From Stappia indica (GTDB lineage Bacteria; Pseudomonadota; Alphaproteobacteria; Rhizobiales; Stappiaceae), in the NCBI RefSeq assembly GCF_009789575.1, contig NZ_CP046908.1, positions 2,459,001 through 2,523,000 on the forward strand: a stretch of DNA of 64,000 bases, in the 5' to 3' direction. Below the pieces are notes generated by a model, which saw only the letters and a program-made list of their open reading frames with translations, did no database searches and was not told the origin of the DNA. The first letter of the stretch is position 1. The number at the start of each line of letters is the position of its first letter. Shown here piece after piece: positions 1-9,574 of the stretch. The translations under genes and the position numbers were made by a program.

Positions 1-987
1 AACGATGCCGTCGTCGTCCGGCCAGCGGGCCAGGCCCTCGTCGCAGAGCCGGAGGGCCGCGGTATGATCGAGGGCGAACCGTTCCAGCTGTATCGCCTGC
101 ACCACGGCCTCGCGGCTGCCCGGCGCCTCCTTCAGGGCCGCCCGCACGGCCTCCAGCGCGGCCCGTATCTCGCCCCTGTCGGTGAGACAGCGCGACGCCT
201 CAACGCGCAATCTCGCCCGCGCCTGCGGCTGGAGAGCGTCCGGCCGTGCCAGGATCCGCTCGATGATGCCGCGCGCGCCCAGCGGATCGCCGGCATGGCG
301 CAGCGCCACCGCATGACGCAGCTGCGCCTGCCACTCGTCCGGATGCCGTTCCGACAGTGCCGCGCCGGCGGCGGCGGCCGCGGCGAAGTCCTTCATCCGC
401 GTCAGGATTTCGACCCGGGCATAGAGCGCCGGCTTGTGCGACGGCGCGGCGACGAGGACCTCCTCGGTCAGCACCAGGCTCTCGGCATGCTCGCCGTTCC
501 AGTGCAGCGACACCGCCAACTCGTGCTTGATCGGAAGGTTGTCCGGATGGCGCCGCAAAGCCTCGGAGAGGTGACGGATGCTCTCGTCCACGCGCCGGCC
601 CTGCCGCAATGCCTCGCCCTTTTTTGCGAGCGCGGCGGGATCGCCGGGAAAGCGCGCCAGCATCTGCCGGGCCGCCTCCAGCGCGGCATCGAAATCCCGC
701 GCCTGCATCAAGGTGTCGACCCTCGCGTAGAGCGCCGGCTTGTGGGCCGGCTCGGCCGCGAGGATCTCCTCCACCAGCGCCAGGCTTTGCGCATGCTCGC
801 CCTGCCAGCGCAGGGACAGCGCCAGCTCGTACCTGATCGCGAGGCCGCCGGGATGGCGCAGCATGGCCTTTGAAAGATACCGGACGCTCTCGTCCACGCG
901 CCGGCCCTGCCGCAGCGCGGCCCCCTGTCTGGCGACCGCCGCCGGATCGTCGGGCTCCGGCCTTGCGGCGTCTGGCATGTCTGACAT
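1..987 (-). CDS. TPR-repeat protein, C-terminus beyond window (partial)
   Basis: An open frame of 329 codons runs from ATG at 987 to the left window edge without a stop. The protein is helical and TPR-like. Two consecutive units of about 100 residues are clearly related: each starts with RQGRRVDES and later carries WxGEHAxSL and HKPALYARV, so the gene has an internal duplication. It begins 30 bases after the carbamoyltransferase stop on the same strand, which suggests it is the last visible gene of the biosynthetic operon. TPR arrays are protein-interaction scaffolds. Some alphaproteobacterial TPR proteins carry a C-terminal sulfotransferase or glycosyltransferase domain, but that part would lie outside the window, so no function is assigned. 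Confidence 0.8.
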   Translation of the reverse strand, partial: MSDMPDAARPEPDDPAAVARQGAALRQGRRVDESVRYLSKAMLRHPGGLAIRYELALSLRWQGEHAQSLALVEEILAAEPAHKPALYARVDTLMQARDFDAALEAARQMLARFPGDPAALAKKGEALRQGRRVDESIRHLSEALRRHPDNLPIKHELAVSLHWNGEHAESLVLTEEVLVAAPSHKPALYARVEILTRMKDFAAAAAAGAALSERHPDEWQAQLRHAVALRHAGDPLGARGIIERILARPDALQPQARARLRVEASRCLTDRGEIRAALEAVRAALKEAPGSREAVVQAIQLERFALDHTAALRLCDEGLARWPDDDGIV

Positions 988-1017
988 GGAACGACTTCTT
1001 GATTGTGCTGCGCCGGC

Positions 1018-2706
1018 TCAGACTGCTGCCGACTTCTCGATCAAGGTGGTCTCGATCACCACCGCGGACAGGCCCGAGGTCATGAACACCGCCAGGGCAT
1101 CCTCGACCGAGTGGACGATGGGCTTGCCCATGATGTTGAAGCTGGTGTTGAGGACGATCGGAACGCCGGTCCGCTCGCCGAAGCGTCGCACCACCCCATG
1201 CATCCAGGGCGCACTGTTTGGTGTGACGGTCTGCAACCGCCCGGTGCCGTCGGCATGGACGACCGCCGGGACCAGCATCTGCCTGTCCTCGCGCCAGCGA
1301 AGTGTCACCGACATGTAGGGCGCGGGCTGCGGGTTGTCGAACCAGTCCGCGACCTCCTCTTCGCAGACCACCGGCGCGAAGGGGCGGTAGGGCTCGCGCC
1401 CCTTTACCAGCCGGTTGATCCGGTCCTTCATGTCGGCCGGGCGCGGATCGGCCAGGATGGAGCGGTTGCCGAGCGCACGCGGACCGAACTCCGCCCGCCC
1501 GCGCATGACACCGACGATCTTTCCCTCCGCCAGCAGTTCGGCAACCCGGTCCTCGCCATCCGCCGAGATATCGCTCACCCGCGCGATGCCGCCGAGAGTG
1601 TCCAGCCTCGACAGCGCAGCCGTGGCGGCGACCGACCCCAGATACGGCGTCGCCGGCAGCAGGGGCACGCAGGTTGTCTTCGCCGTTTCCATCCAGCTCA
1701 GCAGCGCCGCACCGACCGCATTGCCGTCGTCGGCGGGCGCGGGCGGCACGAACAGCCGGTCGTAGCCCATGCGCCCGGCGATGGTGCCGTTATAGGACGA
1801 GTTGAGCGCGCAGCCGCCGCCGAGGATCAGGTTTCCCTCCGCCCCGTCCGCGCTCTCCGACAGGATCCGGTCGGCGAGGATCGCGTAGGCGGCCTGCCCG
1901 CTCGCGGCAAGGTCCGCCGCGCTCATCAAGGGTTCGCCCGCCGGGCGAGCGAAGGTCCTGATCCTCTCCGCAAGGGCCGGAAGCGCGTCCTTGTCGACGA
2001 AGCGCAGGCGCCCGCGATCGACCTCCAGCAGCGACAGGAACGCGTCGCGGATCTCCGGCCTCACCGTCCCGTAGGCGGCAAGCCCCATCACCTTCCACTC
2101 TTCGCCGAGCCGCCAGTCGAACCCGCACAGCTGCGTCAGCCAGGCATACAGCGTGCCGAGGCTCCCGGGCCCCCAGGAGCGCCAGCGGCGCTTGATCCGT
2201 CGCTCGCGCAGGTCGAACATCGACACGGCCCCGGCCTCGCCCTCGCCGTCGATGACCAGGCAGGACGCGGTGTCGACCGGGGCGAAGGCGCAGGCCATCA
2301 CCGCGTGGCACAGGTGATGGTCGTAGCGGCGCACCTCGGGCATCTGCTGCACCAGGCCAAGCCGCAGCAGCGAGGCGCCCGCATGCGTGTTGATCCCTGC
2401 ATGCAGCTCCCGCAGCCACAGGGCATCGGTCACGGGCAGCAGGTCGCCCATCAGCTCGACCGGCAGGTCGGCCTTGGTCTTCTTCCAGCTGGCAGCCACC
2501 GCCAGCGTGTCGGAGCCGGCATCGAAGCCGATCTGGCTCAAGGCGGATTCAAGATGCGGCACATGGTCGGGAGCGATGCCCCAGGCCCTCTTGTCCTGCA
2601 GGAAGCGTTCGGTCGCCTCGGCGAAGACGAGCTGCCCGTCGGCATCGACGATCGCCAGCGCCGGGTCGTGCCCGGACGTCGAAAGCCCGAGGTGAAACAG
2701 TGCCAT
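1018..2706 (-). CDS. NodU/CmcH-family O-carbamoyltransferase
   Basis: The 562-residue protein has the full two-domain layout of the family. The N-terminal part starts LGLSTSGHDPALA, then has the metal/active-site segment DHHLCHAV, VIDGEGEAG and WKVMGLAAYG. GGGCALNS and PPAPADDGNAVG follow. The C-terminal YrdC-like domain has GRAEFGPRALGNRSI and YRPFAP. Family members transfer the carbamoyl group of carbamoyl phosphate, through carbamoyl-AMP, to a hydroxyl of a natural product (NodU on Nod factor, CmcH on cephem). The ATG overlaps the stop of the acyl carrier protein gene (TGATG), implying translational coupling. The likely substrate is a hydroxyl made by the neighbouring P450s on an acyl chain; that is inference. 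Confidence 0.93.
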   Translation of the reverse strand: MALFHLGLSTSGHDPALAIVDADGQLVFAEATERFLQDKRAWGIAPDHVPHLESALSQIGFDAGSDTLAVAASWKKTKADLPVELMGDLLPVTDALWLRELHAGINTHAGASLLRLGLVQQMPEVRRYDHHLCHAVMACAFAPVDTASCLVIDGEGEAGAVSMFDLRERRIKRRWRSWGPGSLGTLYAWLTQLCGFDWRLGEEWKVMGLAAYGTVRPEIRDAFLSLLEVDRGRLRFVDKDALPALAERIRTFARPAGEPLMSAADLAASGQAAYAILADRILSESADGAEGNLILGGGCALNSSYNGTIAGRMGYDRLFVPPAPADDGNAVGAALLSWMETAKTTCVPLLPATPYLGSVAATAALSRLDTLGGIARVSDISADGEDRVAELLAEGKIVGVMRGRAEFGPRALGNRSILADPRPADMKDRINRLVKGREPYRPFAPVVCEEEVADWFDNPQPAPYMSVTLRWREDRQMLVPAVVHADGTGRLQTVTPNSAPWMHGVVRRFGERTGVPIVLNTSFNIMGKPIVHSVEDALAVFMTSGLSAVVIETTLIEKSAAV

Positions 2707-2957
2707 CAGGCTGCCATGCGATCCGCTATCGACCGTGCGAAGTCGCCGAGCGTGTCGTGCTGAAAGATCTCCGCAGGATCGACCTCCACCTCGAAGCGGT
2801 CCTCGACCTCGCCGCAGACGAGAACCGCGTCGATCGACTGCAGGCCGAGATCCGACAGGGACATGTCCATGCGGATCTGGTCGGCCGAGGTCTTGGTCCG
2901 CTGGGCAACCTGTTCGCGAAGGAAGGAGAACAGCTGGGATTCGCTGGCGTCAGTCAT
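2706..2957 (-). CDS. Acyl carrier protein (standalone)
   Basis: 83 residues. The segment DLGLQSIDAV contains the phosphopantetheine attachment serine (Ser41) in the usual D-S-[IL]-[DE] type context, and the size is typical of a discrete carrier protein. An upstream in-frame ATG at 3053 would extend into the P450 coding region; the start at 2957 gives a normal ACP N-terminus and the compact ATGACTGA overlap of 8 bases with the P450 stop. Its position among the fatty acyl-AMP ligase, P450 and carbamoyltransferase genes indicates a dedicated pathway carrier rather than the housekeeping AcpP. It probably holds the acyl substrate during tailoring. Confidence 0.92.
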   Translation of the reverse strand: MTDASESQLFSFLREQVAQRTKTSADQIRMDMSLSDLGLQSIDAVLVCGEVEDRFEVEVDPAEIFQHDTLGDFARSIADRMAA

Positions 2958-5139
2958 TTTCGGGCTCTGTTCTGCTGAAGATGCACGGAAGCGTGCTGAG
3001 GGCGACGGTTTCCGACATGGGGTGATAGCGGTGCGCCTGGACATCGAGCGCAAGGTTGGGGAAGCGACGGAAAATTGCGGGAATGGCCGCCTTGAGGACC
3101 ATCACGGAGAGCGTTGCACCGACACAGCGGTGCAGGCCCTTGCCGAACGATACATGCCCCTTGCCGGCCGGAGACTGCCGGTTCAACACATGCACGTTCA
3201 GCCGCGCCGTGTCACCGGCTTTCATCGCCAGATCCCCGAGGGACAGGTCGGTGCGCGCCACGCGATAGATGAATTTCGGACCGCTGCAGCGCGCGATCAG
3301 CTCGTCGATATTCGCCTCCACCCACGCCTGCCCGCTCGCCGCGCTGCGGTCTTCTGGTGGGCGCGAGAGGATCGACAGCAGCGCGTTCGACAGCGTGTGC
3401 GAAAGGTTGAAGCTGGCCCCATACAGCACCAGCACCACGGCCTTGAGGTCCGCCTCGTCGAAACCCGCCGGCGCATCGGCAACCAGATGCTCCAGCAGCG
3501 ACGGCGGCCCTTCGGAGGCGGCAGGCACCTGCATCAGCGACAGCGCCTCGGTGAAGACCGCCTGGACGCGTCGCAGCTTGCGCATCGAAAGCCAGGGCTC
3601 CAGGACGTCCTGCAGCTGCGGCGCGATGGCGTCGAACCGCGCCTGGTCTCGGCAGGAGATGCCGAGAATGCGCGTCATCACGCTCCGGCGGAGCGGATCG
3701 GAATAGCCCGACACCAGGTCCGGCCGCGCCATTGCCGACAGTTCCTGCAGCGCCTTGTCCAGCGCCGCATCGACGACGCTCCGCCAGGGCTGCAACTGCG
3801 CGGCGCCCAGGAAGCGCATCAGGACCTGCTTCAGCACCTCGTGCCGTGGCCCGTCCATGAAGAACAGGGCGTTGCGCGCGATCCGCGTCGCCTCGTCCAG
3901 GTCCTCGCCGCTCGCCTGCGACAGCAGCGTCAGATGGCTTTCCATCGGCGGGGGCGCGAAGGCGTCGTTGTCCTTCAGGATCCGGTGGGCGCTGCCCATG
4001 TCCCGGATGTCGCAAAGGCGCGCGCTCACCCGCCGCGAGGTCTTGTCGAGGGAGCACGGCAGCGCCGTGGGGGCCTGCATCATGGGCGTGACCACGAACC
4101 GGCATTCGTCGGTCTTGAGGGTGATGTCGGGAAAGGTCCGCGCCAGGATCGGGATCGCCGTCTCGATCAGCATCTCGCTGAGGAACACGCCGGGGCATCT
4201 GTGCGCGCCGCTGCCGAAGCTCATATGGCTCTGGCGCGTCCCCCTGTCCGCGCGCAGGCTGTCCGCGCGCAGGCAGGCGTTCGCCGCCACGATGTCGACC
4301 ACGGCGGACTGCCCCTTGTGATAGGGGCAGCCGGCGACGTCCGTCGCCTCGTTCGCCACCCGGACCAGGGTGCGGGTCGACTGGTAGAGGCCCAGCAGCT
4401 TCTGGGTCTCCTGCGCGCCCCACGCGGGCCCTCCCGCATCGGCCCAAAGCTGCGCCGGCCCGCTGAGCAATCCGTGCAGGGCGAAGGCCAGCGATTGCGT
4501 TGCCGAATTGGAGCCGGCCAGCAGGCCGACGACGAAATACTCCGGCTCCAGCCCGTCCGGCAGGTCGCCCCGGCGGCGACGCAGACAGGCCAGCAGGCTT
4601 TCGGGCGCCGAGCCCTCGCCCGCCCCGGTCTGCGGGCAGGTCGAGACCAGCAGGCGCGCCGCCTGGTTCAGCGCCCTCAGGGTCGGCAGCGACAGATAGG
4701 GTTCCGTCAGGCGCTGCGCGGTTTCAGCGGCTTGAAAATGCTCCGGCGTCGGCGGCAGGTCGAGGCCGAGGATCCGCGGCATGACCTTGAGAAACAGCGG
4801 GATCGTGACATCCCGCACGAGATCCGGGTCGCTCGCGTTTTTCAGCTCCTCGCAGACGCTGCGGCACGCCTCTTCCATCATCGGCCGCCACGGCGCCAGG
4901 CCCGACTGGCTGAAGAACGGGGCGATGACCCGGCGCACCCTGAGATGGGCCTCGCCGCTCATCGCCACCAGCGTGTTGGCCGACAGCCGGCGCAACGCAT
5001 CCAGATCCACGCCGCCGCGCTCGGCGATTTCGTCGAGATAGCGGTCGATGCGCGGCAGCTCCAGGTCGCGCAGCACGGCGACGGCCATCGCCGGCGTCTT
5101 CACGAAGCTGTCGGGATCCGACCAGACATGCCGGCTCAC
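2950..5139 (-). CDS. Tandem fused cytochrome P450 (two P450 domains in one polypeptide)
   Basis: One uninterrupted 729-residue reading frame holds two P450 domains. The first (about 1-368) has a C-helix GEAHLRVRR and heme loop FGSGAHRCPG with ligand Cys315. The second (about 371-729) has GPRHEVLK, heme loop FGKGLHRCVG and ligand Cys672. Each half is short for a P450. The K-helix ExxR motif looks degenerate in both (KLLG near 247-250, ELIA near 613-616), and the I-helix acid-alcohol pair is not canonical (AGSNSAT; YGASFNLS). The GTG start at 5139 is chosen because it overlaps the ligase stop (GTGA) and gives a P450-like N-terminus. It probably oxidises the ACP-bound acyl chain, by analogy with acyl-ACP-acting P450s such as BioI. 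Confidence 0.88.
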   Translation of the reverse strand: MSRHVWSDPDSFVKTPAMAVAVLRDLELPRIDRYLDEIAERGGVDLDALRRLSANTLVAMSGEAHLRVRRVIAPFFSQSGLAPWRPMMEEACRSVCEELKNASDPDLVRDVTIPLFLKVMPRILGLDLPPTPEHFQAAETAQRLTEPYLSLPTLRALNQAARLLVSTCPQTGAGEGSAPESLLACLRRRRGDLPDGLEPEYFVVGLLAGSNSATQSLAFALHGLLSGPAQLWADAGGPAWGAQETQKLLGLYQSTRTLVRVANEATDVAGCPYHKGQSAVVDIVAANACLRADSLRADRGTRQSHMSFGSGAHRCPGVFLSEMLIETAIPILARTFPDITLKTDECRFVVTPMMQAPTALPCSLDKTSRRVSARLCDIRDMGSAHRILKDNDAFAPPPMESHLTLLSQASGEDLDEATRIARNALFFMDGPRHEVLKQVLMRFLGAAQLQPWRSVVDAALDKALQELSAMARPDLVSGYSDPLRRSVMTRILGISCRDQARFDAIAPQLQDVLEPWLSMRKLRRVQAVFTEALSLMQVPAASEGPPSLLEHLVADAPAGFDEADLKAVVLVLYGASFNLSHTLSNALLSILSRPPEDRSAASGQAWVEANIDELIARCSGPKFIYRVARTDLSLGDLAMKAGDTARLNVHVLNRQSPAGKGHVSFGKGLHRCVGATLSVMVLKAAIPAIFRRFPNLALDVQAHRYHPMSETVALSTLPCIFSRTEPEND

Positions 5140-6833
5140 GATGCGGCCCCCGCGACGTGTGCCTTGTCGAGGCAGATGGCTGCGCCGTGCAGGCAGGCGA
5201 GATCGCGCGCCGCCTGCTGACGCCTGATCTTGCCGCTGCTGGTGCGCGGCAGCGTGCCGCGGGGAAGCAGGGCGATGCGCTCCAGCCAGACGCCGGAACT
5301 CGCCGCAACCGACTTGCGGATGCGCGCGGCGAGCAAGGCAGGATCGTCCATCGGCGCGGCCCCGGCCCGCAATTCGATCAGCAGTTCGGCATGGCCGGGC
5401 GCCAGGCCGTCGCTCGCGAACGCCGCCGCCCCGGACGGGCTGAGGTCGCCGTGTTCGCGCGCCGCCAGCCATTCGACTTCCGCCGAGGCGACATTGCGGC
5501 CGTTGACGATGATGACGTCCTTCGCGCGCCCGGTGATGTGGAGATACGCGCCGGAAATGCCGCCGAGGTCTCCCGTCCTCAGCCACCTTGTGCCGTCGGG
5601 GTCCGTGGCGAAATCCTCAGTCTCCTCGGCGTCGCGGCCAAGATACCGCTCGCAGACCGAGGGGCCTTTCAGCCAGATCTCGCCGGTCGCGCCGTCGGGC
5701 AGCGCCCGGCCCGTCTGCGGATCGGCGATCCGGATGTGTTCGCGCGTTGCCTGCGACAGCAGGCAGCCCTCGAACCCGGCCCACGGCTCGGGAACCGTGT
5801 CCTTGTCGCGCAAGGGGCCCGCTTCGCCGGCCGCGAACAGCGTGCATTCCGCCATCCCATAGCAGGCGAACACCGCCTCCCTCGCAAGGCCGCTCGCCGC
5901 AAAGCGCTGGTGAAAGCGGTCCAGCAATCCGCTCGGAACCGGCTCGGCGCCGCAGAACGCCCTCTCCCATGAGCTGAGGTCGAGCCCGCGCGCCTCGTCC
6001 TCGGATATCCGGTTCAGGCATTCGAGAAAGGCGAAGGTCGGACCGCCGCTGAAGGTGCCGTGCCAGGTCGAGATCGCCTCCAGCCAGGCGGCCGGGCGGC
6101 GGATCATGTCGAACGGGCTCATCTGCACCGAATGCGCGCCCGACAGCAGCGGATAGAGGATGCAGCCCATCAGCCCCATGTCGTGATAGTGCGGCAGCCA
6201 GTTGACGATGACGCTGTCGGCGTTCATGCCCCAGAGCGAGCGGATCATCCCGCAATTGGCGCGGATCTGGTCGGCCGTCACCGGCACCGCCTTGGGAAAG
6301 CGGGTCGAGCCGGACGTATGCTGGATCACCGGGAAGGCGCACGGCCCCCCGGCAGCAAAGGCTTGCCGCACTGGAACAGGGTCGTCGACGGCCAGAACCG
6401 GGCAGGCCGGCTCCCCGTCCCGTTCTGCCGACCCGCCGGCCAGCTGCTCCGCCACCATGGCGCGGTTGTTCGTGGTGCAAAGGACTGCCCGCGCGCCGCA
6501 GGTCCGCGCGATGCGCGCCAGCCGGCCCGGCGGATCGGCAGCGCGCGGCGGGGCGATCGGCACCAGGGTTCCGCCGCCGAGCAATGTTGCCACCAGCGTC
6601 AGGAGAAAGTCCTCGCCGGCCGGCAGCGCCGCAATCAGCACATGCGGCCCCTCGCCGAGGCAGCGATCCCAGAGCGCCTGCACGTCCCTCGCGCGCGCCG
6701 CGAGTTGCGCGCCGTCGAACGTCCTGTACTGGCCGCGCCGTCCCAGGACCGTGATCAGCGGCGCGTCATGGCGCTGCTCGAGCACCGCCGCGATCTCGCG
6801 TTGAAGGCTTGTTTCGCTCACGCGCCTGTCCAT
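5136..6833 (-). CDS. Fatty acyl-AMP ligase (FAAL-like)
   Basis: The 565-residue adenylate-forming enzyme has HTSGSTRFPK (about 172-181), then the FAAL hallmark WLPHYHDMGLMG and SGGPTFAF. GAEPV, CYGMAECTL, TGDLGG, GRAKDVIIVNGRN and the catalytic lysine region RTSSGKIRR follow. Family members activate fatty acids as acyl-adenylates and pass them to an acyl carrier protein rather than to CoA. The ACP gene two positions downstream fits this. The ATG at 6833 lies 29 bases after the radical SAM stop, and the stop overlaps the P450 GTG by four bases. Long upstream extensions of this frame run antisense-like through the radical SAM gene and were not accepted. Confidence 0.92.
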   Translation of the reverse strand: MDRRVSETSLQREIAAVLEQRHDAPLITVLGRRGQYRTFDGAQLAARARDVQALWDRCLGEGPHVLIAALPAGEDFLLTLVATLLGGGTLVPIAPPRAADPPGRLARIARTCGARAVLCTTNNRAMVAEQLAGGSAERDGEPACPVLAVDDPVPVRQAFAAGGPCAFPVIQHTSGSTRFPKAVPVTADQIRANCGMIRSLWGMNADSVIVNWLPHYHDMGLMGCILYPLLSGAHSVQMSPFDMIRRPAAWLEAISTWHGTFSGGPTFAFLECLNRISEDEARGLDLSSWERAFCGAEPVPSGLLDRFHQRFAASGLAREAVFACYGMAECTLFAAGEAGPLRDKDTVPEPWAGFEGCLLSQATREHIRIADPQTGRALPDGATGEIWLKGPSVCERYLGRDAEETEDFATDPDGTRWLRTGDLGGISGAYLHITGRAKDVIIVNGRNVASAEVEWLAAREHGDLSPSGAAAFASDGLAPGHAELLIELRAGAAPMDDPALLAARIRKSVAASSGVWLERIALLPRGTLPRTSSGKIRRQQAARDLACLHGAAICLDKAHVAGAAS

Positions 6834-6862
6834 CGGATTGCTTGGTCTTGCCGTCGCGGGCC

Positions 6863-8422
6863 TCAGGCCGGTTGCGCGAGGGCTTGCTCGCTGCCCAGGT
6901 GGACCTGCCTGGTGCCCTGCTGCGACAGCCGGTGAAGCGAGGTGAACGAATTGAGGAAGATGGCGAGTGCGGACGACAGGTCCCGCGCAATTTCGGGACG
7001 CTGGTGCGACAGGTCGTTGACGGCGTCGATGACGCGTCGCCCGCGCCGGTCCCTTGCGGCCTGCCGGAACAGCTTCAGCACTCCGGAAGCGCCCTTGCCG
7101 GGCGTCACCATGTGGTCGCTCGCCCGCAGGTGCTCCGGCGGCGGCGCCAGCAATGCGGCGAGATGCTCGAAACGCTTGATCGCATTGTCGGGATCGTGCA
7201 GCGCCTCGACCAGCCAGATGGCGCCTTCGGCCAGTTGGCGGCGGGTCATCTGCCGCGGCTCGATATTCGTCCACAGATTGCCGCCGGGGAAGCTGCTCTG
7301 CTTGCCGTCCGCAACCAGCCGGCCTTCGGCCGCCATCTGGTCGTAGAGCGGGGTGGCGACCGGCGCGACCAGCACCGACACCCGCAAGTTCACGACCGGC
7401 AAGGCCATGCCGAATTCGAACTGGCGCTCGAAACATCCCAGGTCGTCCTGGTCGAAGCCGACCATCATGCCGCCGGTAATCGTCAGCCCGCCGGCGACGA
7501 TGCGGCTGATCTCGGTCACGAGGTCCCGGCGCATGTTCTGGCGCTTCTTGACCTCCTTGAGGGCGTCCTCGTTGCTGGTCTCGATGCCGACGAAGATGTC
7601 GCGCAATCCCGCCTTGTTGCACAGCTCGATGAGTTCCGCGTCCCGCGACAGGTCGATCGAGGCCTGGGTGGCGAACTGGACCGGCTGGCGGCCGTCGCGC
7701 CCGTTCCAGCCGGCAAGCCCTTCCAGCAGAACGCGGGACTTCTTGCGGTTGACCGTGAAGTTGTCGTCGGAAAGATTGATGCTGCGATAGCCGAGATCGT
7801 AGAGCACCTGCGCTTCCGCGAGCACCTTCTCGATCGGCTTGTGCCGCTGCACGCGCCCCAGATACTGGATCACGTCGCAGAAGCTGCATTCGAACGGACA
7901 GCCGCGGCTCGTCTGGATCACGCCGCTGATCGCGCGGTCGTTGCGGTAGAGATCCCAGCGCGGCACCGGCGAACGCCCCAGATCGGCCTGGCCGCACAGG
8001 TAGCGCGGCTTCAGGGTATCGGCCAGCAGATCGCGGCTCAGCTCGCTCGCCACGGTCTCGAACTCGCCGATGATCAGGCTGTCCGCCTCCCCGTCGAAGT
8101 CGCCGGGCGCCAGCGACACATGCGGGCCGCCCATGACCACGCGCCGTCCCTTGGCGCGGAACCTGCGGGCGATCTCGATGCCGCGGGACGCCTGGGCAAC
8201 GTTCATGCTGATGGCGACGACGTCGGACGGATCGTCGAAATCGACATCCTCGGTCATCTCGTCGCACAGCCGGATGTTGAAATCGCCCTCCAGCAGCGCG
8301 GCGACGGTGGTGATCCCCGCCGAGGCCAGCAGGGCATAGCGTTCGTCGATGTTCAGGACCTTGTCGGCCACGAGCGCTTCATCGCCGAAGCTCGGCAACG
8401 GAGCGATGAGATAAATGTCCAT
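6863..8422 (-). CDS. B12-binding-type radical SAM protein with DUF4070-like C-terminus
   Basis: 519 residues. The N-terminal 140 residues resemble a cobalamin-binding fold (VMGGPHVSLAP, IIGEFE). The radical SAM core starts at SRGCPFECSFC with cluster cysteines 175, 179 and 182. Further on, DDNFTVN, FVGIETSNEDALKEVKKRQN and GGMMVGFDQDD resemble the HpnP/DUF4070 group of class B radical SAM enzymes. Known members of that broad class often methylate unactivated carbons, but related proteins do other chemistry, so methylation is a hypothesis. A Shine-Dalgarno-like CAGGA lies just upstream of the ATG. This is the first gene of the operon, with a candidate promoter at 8464-8493. Confidence 0.9.
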   Translation of the reverse strand: MDIYLIAPLPSFGDEALVADKVLNIDERYALLASAGITTVAALLEGDFNIRLCDEMTEDVDFDDPSDVVAISMNVAQASRGIEIARRFRAKGRRVVMGGPHVSLAPGDFDGEADSLIIGEFETVASELSRDLLADTLKPRYLCGQADLGRSPVPRWDLYRNDRAISGVIQTSRGCPFECSFCDVIQYLGRVQRHKPIEKVLAEAQVLYDLGYRSINLSDDNFTVNRKKSRVLLEGLAGWNGRDGRQPVQFATQASIDLSRDAELIELCNKAGLRDIFVGIETSNEDALKEVKKRQNMRRDLVTEISRIVAGGLTITGGMMVGFDQDDLGCFERQFEFGMALPVVNLRVSVLVAPVATPLYDQMAAEGRLVADGKQSSFPGGNLWTNIEPRQMTRRQLAEGAIWLVEALHDPDNAIKRFEHLAALLAPPPEHLRASDHMVTPGKGASGVLKLFRQAARDRRGRRVIDAVNDLSHQRPEIARDLSSALAIFLNSFTSLHRLSQQGTRQVHLGSEQALAQPA

Positions 8423-8571: not shown

Positions 8572-9444
8572 TCACGAGGCCGAGAGCAGGATGACGCCCG
8601 CGATCAGCACCGCGCAGCCGGCGAGCCGCCAGGGGCCGACGCTTTCGCGCAGGATCACCATGCCCATCAGGGCGCCGACCATCATCGACATCTCCCGCAA
8701 GGGCGCGACGAGGCTGAGCGGCGCGCCCTCGCTCAGGGCGGCGAGCACCAGGATATAGGACGCCGGCGCCAGCAGCCCGACCCCGACCGCCGTCCACCAG
8801 TGCCCGCGCATCGCCGCCATCGCCTGGCGCGGGCGCGCCAGCACCACGGGCAGCAGCATCAGGAAGCGCAACAGGTTCGACACCCATTCCAGCACCACCG
8901 GCGCGATGCCGAGCGACTTCACCGCCACCGCGTCGACCACCGTGTAGCCGGCTATGAACCCGCCGGTGACCGTGCCCCAGCGCAGGCCCGCCTGGCCGCC
9001 GGGGCGGGTGAAGGCGGCGATCTTCCCTTGCGTCGAGATCAGCAGGATGCCGGCGACCACCAGCAGCAGACCCGCGACCCCCGTGCCGGTCGGCACCTCG
9101 CCCAGCAGCACGAAGGCCCCGAGGCTGGAGAGCATCGGCCCCGTCCCGCGCGCCACCGGATAGACGACCGACAGGTCGGCCACCTGGTAGCCGCGCTGCA
9201 GGCAGAGGCTATAGGCGAGATGGATCAGGCTGCTCAGCACGATGAAGGCGGCGCCCATCGCCGTCCAGGCGATGCCGCCCTCGATCAGCAGGTAGATCAC
9301 CCAGGGCGCATAGGCGATGCAGGCGACGACGTTATAGGCGAAGACGAAGGCCGCGCCGGCATGGGCCGCCCGTTTCGCCAACAGGTTCCAGGTGGCATGG
9401 ATGAAGGATGCGAGAACGACGAGAAGCAGAGAGGCAAGCGTCAT
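8572..9444 (-). CDS. EamA/DMT-superfamily permease
   Basis: A 290-residue, strongly hydrophobic protein with about ten predicted membrane segments in two repeated halves, the layout of EamA (drug/metabolite transporter) proteins. The first half starts LLLVVLASFIHATWNLLAKRA and has VYPVARGTGP; the second half has a matching SLVAPLREMS. The ATG at 9444 has a strong GGGGGTC-type ribosome site. It is on the same strand as the biosynthetic operon, 149 bases upstream of it, so it might export the product. Separate transcription is equally possible because a promoter-like sequence lies in the gap. The substrate cannot be read from sequence. Confidence 0.88.
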   Translation of the reverse strand: MTLASLLLVVLASFIHATWNLLAKRAAHAGAAFVFAYNVVACIAYAPWVIYLLIEGGIAWTAMGAAFIVLSSLIHLAYSLCLQRGYQVADLSVVYPVARGTGPMLSSLGAFVLLGEVPTGTGVAGLLLVVAGILLISTQGKIAAFTRPGGQAGLRWGTVTGGFIAGYTVVDAVAVKSLGIAPVVLEWVSNLLRFLMLLPVVLARPRQAMAAMRGHWWTAVGVGLLAPASYILVLAALSEGAPLSLVAPLREMSMMVGALMGMVILRESVGPWRLAGCAVLIAGVILLSAS

Positions 9445-9574
9445 TGAGACCCCCTTGCGCGGTGCGCGGTTGATCTCGACGTCTCCTCCCCTGGGCTTTT
9501 GTCCCTTGGGTGCAGCCGGGAAACTCCCCCGGTTTCTGCAACGCTCGGTCCTGCGGCGATCTGCCCGGATCCCG

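Follow-up and report, generated by a model that had tools for sequence, protein, structure and literature searches.

The cassette at the edge of the window

A cassette of six co-directed genes lies at one end of a 64,000-nucleotide stretch of the Stappia indica genome (contig NZ_CP046908.1, a single contig of 5.1 Mb, positions 2,459,001 to 2,523,000, forward strand; the whole stretch is called the window below). The genes occupy the minus strand from window position 8422 to 1953 bases past the window edge and encode, in order, a radical S-adenosylmethionine protein (rSAM), a fatty acyl-AMP ligase (FAAL), a fused tandem cytochrome P450, an acyl carrier protein (ACP), an O-carbamoyltransferase and a protein with tetratricopeptide (TPR) repeats (Table 1). 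These enzyme types, named in a preliminary description of the DNA, are borne out by the open reading frames and by Pfam and NCBIfam matches. The four genes with overlapping stop and start codons in that description correspond to three junctions: following the rSAM/FAAL gap of 29 nt, the overlaps measure 4, 8 and 1 nt, and a 30-nt gap separates the carbamoyltransferase from the TPR gene. A promoter and terminator scan gave nothing informative.

Table 1. Genes of the cassette and its upstream neighbour, in window coordinates
Feature	Position	Strand	Details
Radical SAM protein (rSAM)	6863..8422	-	ATG start; 519 aa; CxxxCxxC present; N-terminal B12-binding-like domain and DUF4070
Fatty acyl-AMP ligase (FAAL)	5136..6833	-	ATG start; 565 aa; AMP-binding E 3.6e-46
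Fused tandem cytochrome P450	2950..5139	-	GTG start; 729 aa; 4-nt overlap with FAAL stop
Acyl carrier protein (ACP)	2706..2957	-	ATG start; 83 aa; Ser in LGLQSID; PP-binding 51.4 bits (cut-off 20.8)
NodU/TobZ/GdmN-type O-carbamoyltransferase	1018..2706	-	ATG start; 562 aa
TPR-LPLAT gene	1..987, continued outside the window at L002:18047-19999	-	ATG at 987; N-terminal 329 aa with TPR repeats inside the window
EamA-family transporter	8572..9447	-	PF00892 52.5 bits; flanking gene outside the cassette, marking its upstream border

The rSAM is predicted to be an optional tailoring enzyme of the cassette. It matches Radical_SAM at 52.2 bits (cut-off 29.5) and DUF4070 at 25.6 bits (cut-off 22), and the PDB entries AprD4 (E 4.3e-10) and TokK (E 1.2e-4). 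The earlier label of a B12-type radical SAM enzyme thus stands in its second part, whereas the B12-binding domain, at 27.4 bits (E 3.2e-6), falls below the Pfam curated cut-off of 32.1. The ligase appears nearer to FAALs, which are described as having a specific insertion and helix (PMC8460268), than to CoA ligases: the fatty acyl-AMP ligase models of NCBIfam score 259 and 250 bits and the best CoA-ligase model 227, all of them below cut-off. At E<=1e-30, seven of the 15 distinct PDB sequences matched are named FAAL or FadD23/28/32, and the remainder polyketide synthase, saframycin synthetase or acyl-CoA synthase. The double P450 exceeds the Pfam p450 cut-off (37.9 against 22.8 bits), with PDB P450s matching both halves.

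The carbamoyltransferase carries Carbam_trans_C (222 bits) and Carbam_trans_N (98.8 bits), both above cut-off (PF02543 and PF16861), and its PDB matches include decarbamoylnovobiocin carbamoyltransferase (E 1.3e-71), GdmN and TobZ. With NodU/NolO, NovN, GdmN and TobZ it shares both Pfam domains at high score; unlike them it is expected to act on an ACP-borne substrate. Against the NodU equivalog model it reaches 164 bits (cut-off 1000).

The last gene encodes a putative VexE-like acyltransferase

The preliminary description had recorded the last gene as a TPR gene. TPR repeats are indeed present, but the gene is no plain TPR gene: it continues outside the window to 979 aa in all, and its C-terminal part is predicted, from sequence profiles and structural models, to be a lipid A/PatA-type acyltransferase (LPLAT) domain. 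VexE, an ACP-dependent sugar O-acyltransferase described as transferring a beta-hydroxyacyl group from ACP onto UDP-GlcNAc (PMC9597891), has this same architecture, with TPR repeats at the N-terminus and an LPLAT domain at the C-terminus. Pfam returned no credible match for the LPLAT domain, nor for the thioesterase-like (TE-like) proteins or SGNH partners of related loci considered below (a few chance-level rows), and folds or profiles were therefore used instead. A PDB sequence search with the LPLAT profile likewise gave nothing credible, the best match being a portal protein (E 0.012). The fold-match profile is nearly identical to that of VexE (PatA about 18, LpxM about 18).

Across eight LPLAT domains, His94 and Asp156 are conserved in 8/8, and the acid of the HX4D/E motif (position +5) occurs in 0/8, being replaced by N, N, N, G, L, F, M and S. 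VexE has similarly lost this acid and kept the histidine and a distal aspartate; as in VexE, the acyl donor here would be an ACP. A classical HtrB/LpxL/LpxM late acyltransferase of lipid A, for which HX4(D/E) would be expected, is not supported, and a plain TPR scaffold is rejected by the LPLAT domain with its fold and VexE profile matches. Scores of 31.2 bits for the window protein and 47.2 for that of L102 against the VexE equivalog NF011721 (cut-off 1200 bits) suggest a distant VexE homologue, not VexE itself. VexE also differs in context: it draws on beta-hydroxyacyl-ACP, whereas the presumed transfer here would come after the action of a ligase and ACP of the cassette's own, P450s, a carbamoyltransferase and an rSAM, and no capsule genes were noticed beside the window cassette. 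How the product leaves its carrier had been left open; this TPR-LPLAT protein, cut by the window edge, is the likely answer.

Left of the window lies a sequence resembling a miniature inverted-repeat transposable element (261 bp, L002:17786-18046; about -2213 to -1953 in a numbering that falls from 0 beyond the window's left edge). Its 27-bp terminal inverted repeats are 89% complementary. At E<=1e-40 this genome contains 24 matches to the element, and five of the 13 other genomes of the genus contain 2 to 9. Judging from the sequences, the final codons of the TPR-LPLAT gene appear to come from the repeat of this element.

The cassette is conserved as a unit and patchily distributed

In eight other genomes of the family, searched by tblastn with the six proteins against 20-kb loci, rSAM, P450, ACP and carbamoyltransferase occur together in 8/8 and the FAAL in 7/8. 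The locus lacking the FAAL belongs to a Breoghania metagenome-assembled genome (L023). Among the family loci compared, only those of the same genus have the cassette bordered by EamA and binding-protein genes. An empty site is present in the same-genus genome G080, where the EamA end (window 8567) joins window position -2214 within 5 nt. This genome lacks the whole 10.8-kb stretch, TPR gene included, keeps the EamA gene and has no full-length double P450. The cassette is rare and patchy: near full-length double-P450 matches were obtained in 4/14 genomes of the genus and 9/87 of the family, and in 2/297 order and 1/385 class genomes sampled, the last being the window's own. It is also carried by two plasmids: pSC52_1, which is typed as mobilizable, and a plasmid of Phaeobacter sp. 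G2 that is typed as non-mobilizable.

The Breoghania cassette (L023:8625-16800 / L045) is decayed: internal stops and frame changes interrupt its P450, carbamoyltransferase, rSAM and TPR genes, and the 20 kb contain no detectable FAAL.

A scan of species genomes with a carbamoyltransferase profile and two peptide patterns, of which the best 80 of 262 confirmed relatives were kept, yielded 34 cassette loci; with L016, L018, L020, L021 and the plasmid loci L105 and L106 they form a set of 40 distinct loci, which is not exhaustive. In the other 46 of the best 80, tblastn did not show the P450-ACP-carbamoyltransferase arrangement, and they are uncounted. The set includes three pairs of near-copies (L027/L105, L034/L106 and L061/L094). 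It spans Alpha- and Gammaproteobacteria, Bacteroidota and Verrucomicrobiota, hence three phyla, with Stappia, Breoghania, Roseibium, several Rhodobacter relatives, Aurantimonas, Methylorubrum, Brevundimonas, Sphingopyxis, Rhizobium, Pseudomonas, Stutzerimonas, Hahella, Marinomonas, Alteromonas, Idiomarina, Pedobacter, Galbibacter and a Puniceicoccaceae bacterium represented. All four core proteins (FAAL, P450, ACP and carbamoyltransferase) were found by tblastn or annotation in 37/40 loci; the exceptions are L031, L035 and L045, the last with no FAAL found. Within the set, rSAM genes are confined to alphaproteobacterial loci. The co-occurrence search that had been proposed as a check finds the gene set together in the family and its core in other phyla, and the grouping of ligase and ACP with P450, rSAM and O-carbamoylation enzymes holds as one conserved unit.

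A partly duplicated cassette occurs in G072, a member of the genus of Roseibium suaedae (L021:5989-16207), in the order rSAM, short FAAL remnant, double P450, ACP, TE-like gene, second FAAL, single P450, ACP and carbamoyltransferase.

The terminal module is exclusive and repeatedly exchanged

Profiles of four candidate families, built from members of the set, were run over six-frame translations of the 40 loci. Sixteen hold a gene of the membrane-bound O-acyltransferase (MBOAT) family immediately followed by an SGNH-like gene, 11 a TPR-LPLAT gene, nine a TE-like alpha/beta hydrolase gene and four none of these; no locus holds two. In the loci examined the terminal module is thus exclusive. In L049, a locus counted under none, a weak but probable TPR-LPLAT gene lies where the contig ends (VexE E 2.5e-5; hhalign probability 68). 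No MBOAT or SGNH profile match was obtained in 15 kb around the window cassette (L016).

The MBOATs of the 16 relatives resemble DltB. They possess a catalytic-type histidine, keep the C-terminal acyl-shuttle tyrosine (checked in 13) and are accompanied by a partner to which predicted models of relatives assign an SGNH fold. The one scanned against the DltB equivalog TIGR04091, from L039, scores 116.6 bits (cut-off 375). In the TE-like hydrolases the nucleophile is a cysteine in 9/9, and their profile matches 9f7b (named hydroxyacyl-ACP dehydratase), thioesterases of non-ribosomal peptide synthetases (NRPS) and polyketide synthases (PKS), and NocB in the PDB. The statement that no thioesterase is in view is true of the window locus as far as looked, but it does not extend to these nine loci.

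The module was exchanged repeatedly in the loci examined. The carbamoyltransferase tree has 45 rows, of which six are outgroup and 39 come from cassettes; the broken copy of L045 was left out. All cassette rows group in a single starred clade. Six changes of the module label are required on this tree, against a minimum of 2, and the starred branches force at least 3 for MBOAT, 4 for LPLAT and 3 for TE. Seven changes are needed on the FAAL tree (38 rows), where the TE label is weakly clustered (13/500 shuffles as low), and 6 on the double-P450 tree (27 rows). Both the carbamoyltransferase tree and the P450 tree place the Fluviibacterium/SC52 MBOAT type among the Stappia/Pararhodobacter LPLAT types. 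The ancestral form may have been MBOAT-SGNH, because the recognised modules of Bacteroidota, Verrucomicrobiota and Gammaproteobacteria are all of this type, except the probable TPR-LPLAT gene of L049.

Rhodobacter sp. NTK016B carries two cassettes on different contigs, one of the TPR-LPLAT type with an rSAM (L028) and one of the TE type (L035).

Polysaccharide genes flank the cassette in four related loci

Neighbouring genes were scanned by family in five loci, and in four of these the cassette is flanked by polysaccharide genes: Bac_transf, Polysacc_synt_2 and a glycosyltransferase in Marinomonas; DegT, UDP-glucose dehydrogenase and Polysacc_synt_2 in Pedobacter; UDP-glucose dehydrogenase and a nucleotidyl transferase in Galbibacter; and GDP-mannose dehydratase, GT25 and GT1 in Alteromonas. 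In the fifth, Idiomarina (L054:4870-17877), the cassette is surrounded by genes for PqqD, a sulfotransferase and asparagine synthase; the Puniceicoccaceae locus L050 is similar by eye only.

A proposed acyl-decoration pathway and its alternatives

The combination of a fixed builder with a swappable transferase has as its simplest reading FAAL loading, tailoring on the ACP, O-carbamoylation and transfer to a sugar hydroxyl. We infer every chemical step, the order of the steps, the acid used and the acceptor. The FAAL would adenylate a carboxylic acid and load it on the dedicated ACP. The fused P450s, in this lineage together with the rSAM, would act on the acyl chain while it is bound to the ACP, either creating a hydroxyl or making use of one, and the NodU-type enzyme would carbamoylate this hydroxyl from carbamoyl phosphate and ATP. 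Transfer off the ACP would fall to the TPR-LPLAT protein, which, like VexE, would attach the completed acyl group to a hydroxyl; the acceptor would be a sugar nucleotide, a glycan or a glycolipid. Relatives would couple this builder either to a DltB/DltD-like MBOAT-SGNH pair, which would deliver the group through the membrane onto an exported polymer, or to a Cys-type TE-like hydrolase. By analogy with these systems, we propose that the cassette of this marine bacterium is a Dlt/VexE-like, carrier-based acyl-decoration pathway, in which an oxidised, carbamoylated acyl-ACP serves a glycan or sugar-nucleotide hydroxyl, and give this a probability of roughly 55%. The preliminary description had a carbamoylated lipid in mind; the comparative evidence points to a sugar or surface glycan as the target of acylation. 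Of the three modules, two come from families in which some members form esters with hydroxyls of glycans or sugars. More tentatively, at a little short of even odds, the cassettes of at least three phyla may form one carrier-dependent decoration system, in which a fixed builder makes an O-carbamoylated acyl-ACP and three unrelated transferase machines are exchanged to serve different glycans or acceptors.

The 16 MBOAT loci share with the Dlt pathway, whose ligase is DltA, an AMP-forming ligase, a dedicated carrier, an MBOAT with an SGNH partner and the shuttle tyrosine. The carrier of that pathway is described as DltC, its MBOAT as DltB and its SGNH protein as DltD (PMC12148441). Unlike Dlt, the window's own cassette contains neither MBOAT nor SGNH genes, the ligase is a FAAL, and P450s and a carbamoyltransferase presumably act between loading and transfer; in the relatives the MBOAT carries the shuttle motif as a fusion, like PatA, and there is no separate DltX. 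A FAAL with its cognate ACP also begins PKS and NRPS clusters as a starter-unit module (PMC11837247), but no PKS or NRPS was noticed at the window locus. The text of that FAAL review contains no match for P450, MBOAT or radical SAM, and its only match to 'carbam' is carbamidocyclophanes. The combination had not been recognised as a described cluster, and in agreement with this the whole was not found described in the open-access literature, among the matches listed (titles and abstract openings; most subscription journals lie outside this scope). The parts are known; the assembly appears new as far as these listed matches show.

If correct, the proposal would describe a Dlt-like, carrier-fed MBOAT-SGNH pathway outside teichoic acids and a previously undescribed decoration system. 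It would provide a natural set of interchangeable acyl-ACP transferases, together with atypical P450s that may act on ACP-bound acyl chains, and would turn a cluster of 'unknown product' into a short assay list with a mass signature of +43.006 Da for the carbamoyl group.

Several observations weigh against the decoration pathway. No glycan genes were noticed beside the window cassette in translations read by eye, with no family search, and few or none in the alphaproteobacterial loci inspected by translations or annotation, the exception being sugar-epimerase-like open reading frames 8-9 kb from the core in L032, L061 and L094. L035 has no FAAL in the available stretch, and L031 gave no P450 or ACP match by tblastn, only distant ligase and P450 homologues. 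Among the module-less loci, L030 and L049 lie near contig ends, but the Rhodovulum loci L061 and L094 do not. The LPLAT fold comes from predicted models of relatives, of moderate confidence, and Asp156 is equated with PatA E200/VexE D532 by order along the chain and not from a superposed active site. The trees were made by a quick method and contain flagged long branches. The TE-like hydrolase of nine loci would fit release of a free acid, and the degenerate P450 motifs leave the oxidation step plausible but not safe.

That no glycan genes were noticed by eye beside the window cassette would also fit a pathway in which the LPLAT domain joins the carbamoylated oxy-acyl group to a small amine or alcohol, giving a secreted small molecule and no decorated surface glycan. 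Rarity and patchiness of the gene set are likewise typical of specialised metabolism, and the best PDB matches of the carbamoyltransferase, the novobiocin enzyme and GdmN, are antibiotic enzymes. We nevertheless regard such a product as unlikely: the LPLAT protein is VexE-like, the commonest alternative module is a polymer-acylation machine, and surface-polysaccharide genes flank the cassette in four other loci.

The P450 domains bear on the oxidation step, whichever product is made. Of the 39 loci examined for a fused double P450, 26 have one, and all of these belong to Alphaproteobacteria or to plasmids of that class; the remaining loci have separate P450 genes or a single one. Across the 39 loci the haem cysteine is conserved in 70/70 domains, both window domains included. 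The I-helix pattern AGx[DE][TS] occurs in 0/70, and ExxR at the aligned place in 7/70, neither window domain being one of the seven. The window domains, like most of those in relatives across phyla, therefore lack the canonical set of haem cysteine, ExxR and I-helix AGx[DE]T. Oxidation by the P450s is hence less safe than the preliminary description assumed: the cysteine speaks for it, and the absence of the acid-alcohol motif and canonical ExxR against. The best NCBIfam model for the double P450 is TIGR04515, a P450-derived glycosyltransferase activator (87.7 of 343 bits, below cut-off). The domains could accordingly be structural partners of that kind and no oxygenases, with the carbamoylated hydroxyl coming from the loaded acid or the rSAM, which is compatible with any of the fates considered for the product. 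This appears decidedly improbable: the invariant cysteine indicates that haem binding is probably under selection, and three ordinary P450s of the family, which have ExxR, likewise lack AGx[DE][TS].

Replacement of the module by a TE-like hydrolase in 9/40 loci would also suit a free carbamoylated fatty acid, the carrier being emptied by hydrolysis and the TPR protein acting only as scaffold or regulator. We consider this very improbable. The nucleophile of these hydrolases is invariably cysteine, which in some NRPS thioesterases, e.g. ObiF1, accompanies transfer or ring closure; moreover, no hydrolase was seen in the window locus, and the LPLAT dyad is conserved. A chance neighbourhood of genes is rejected by conservation in family loci and other phyla and by the clean empty site in G080.

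A different pairing in methane-oxidising bacteria

Six loci of methane-oxidising bacteria (L063, L066, L072, L073, L090 and L093) have an rSAM gene directly before the carbamoyltransferase gene, without tblastn matches to P450 or FAAL. Identity to the window proteins is 24-27% for the rSAM and about 40-42% for the carbamoyltransferase, and we regard this as a different pairing.

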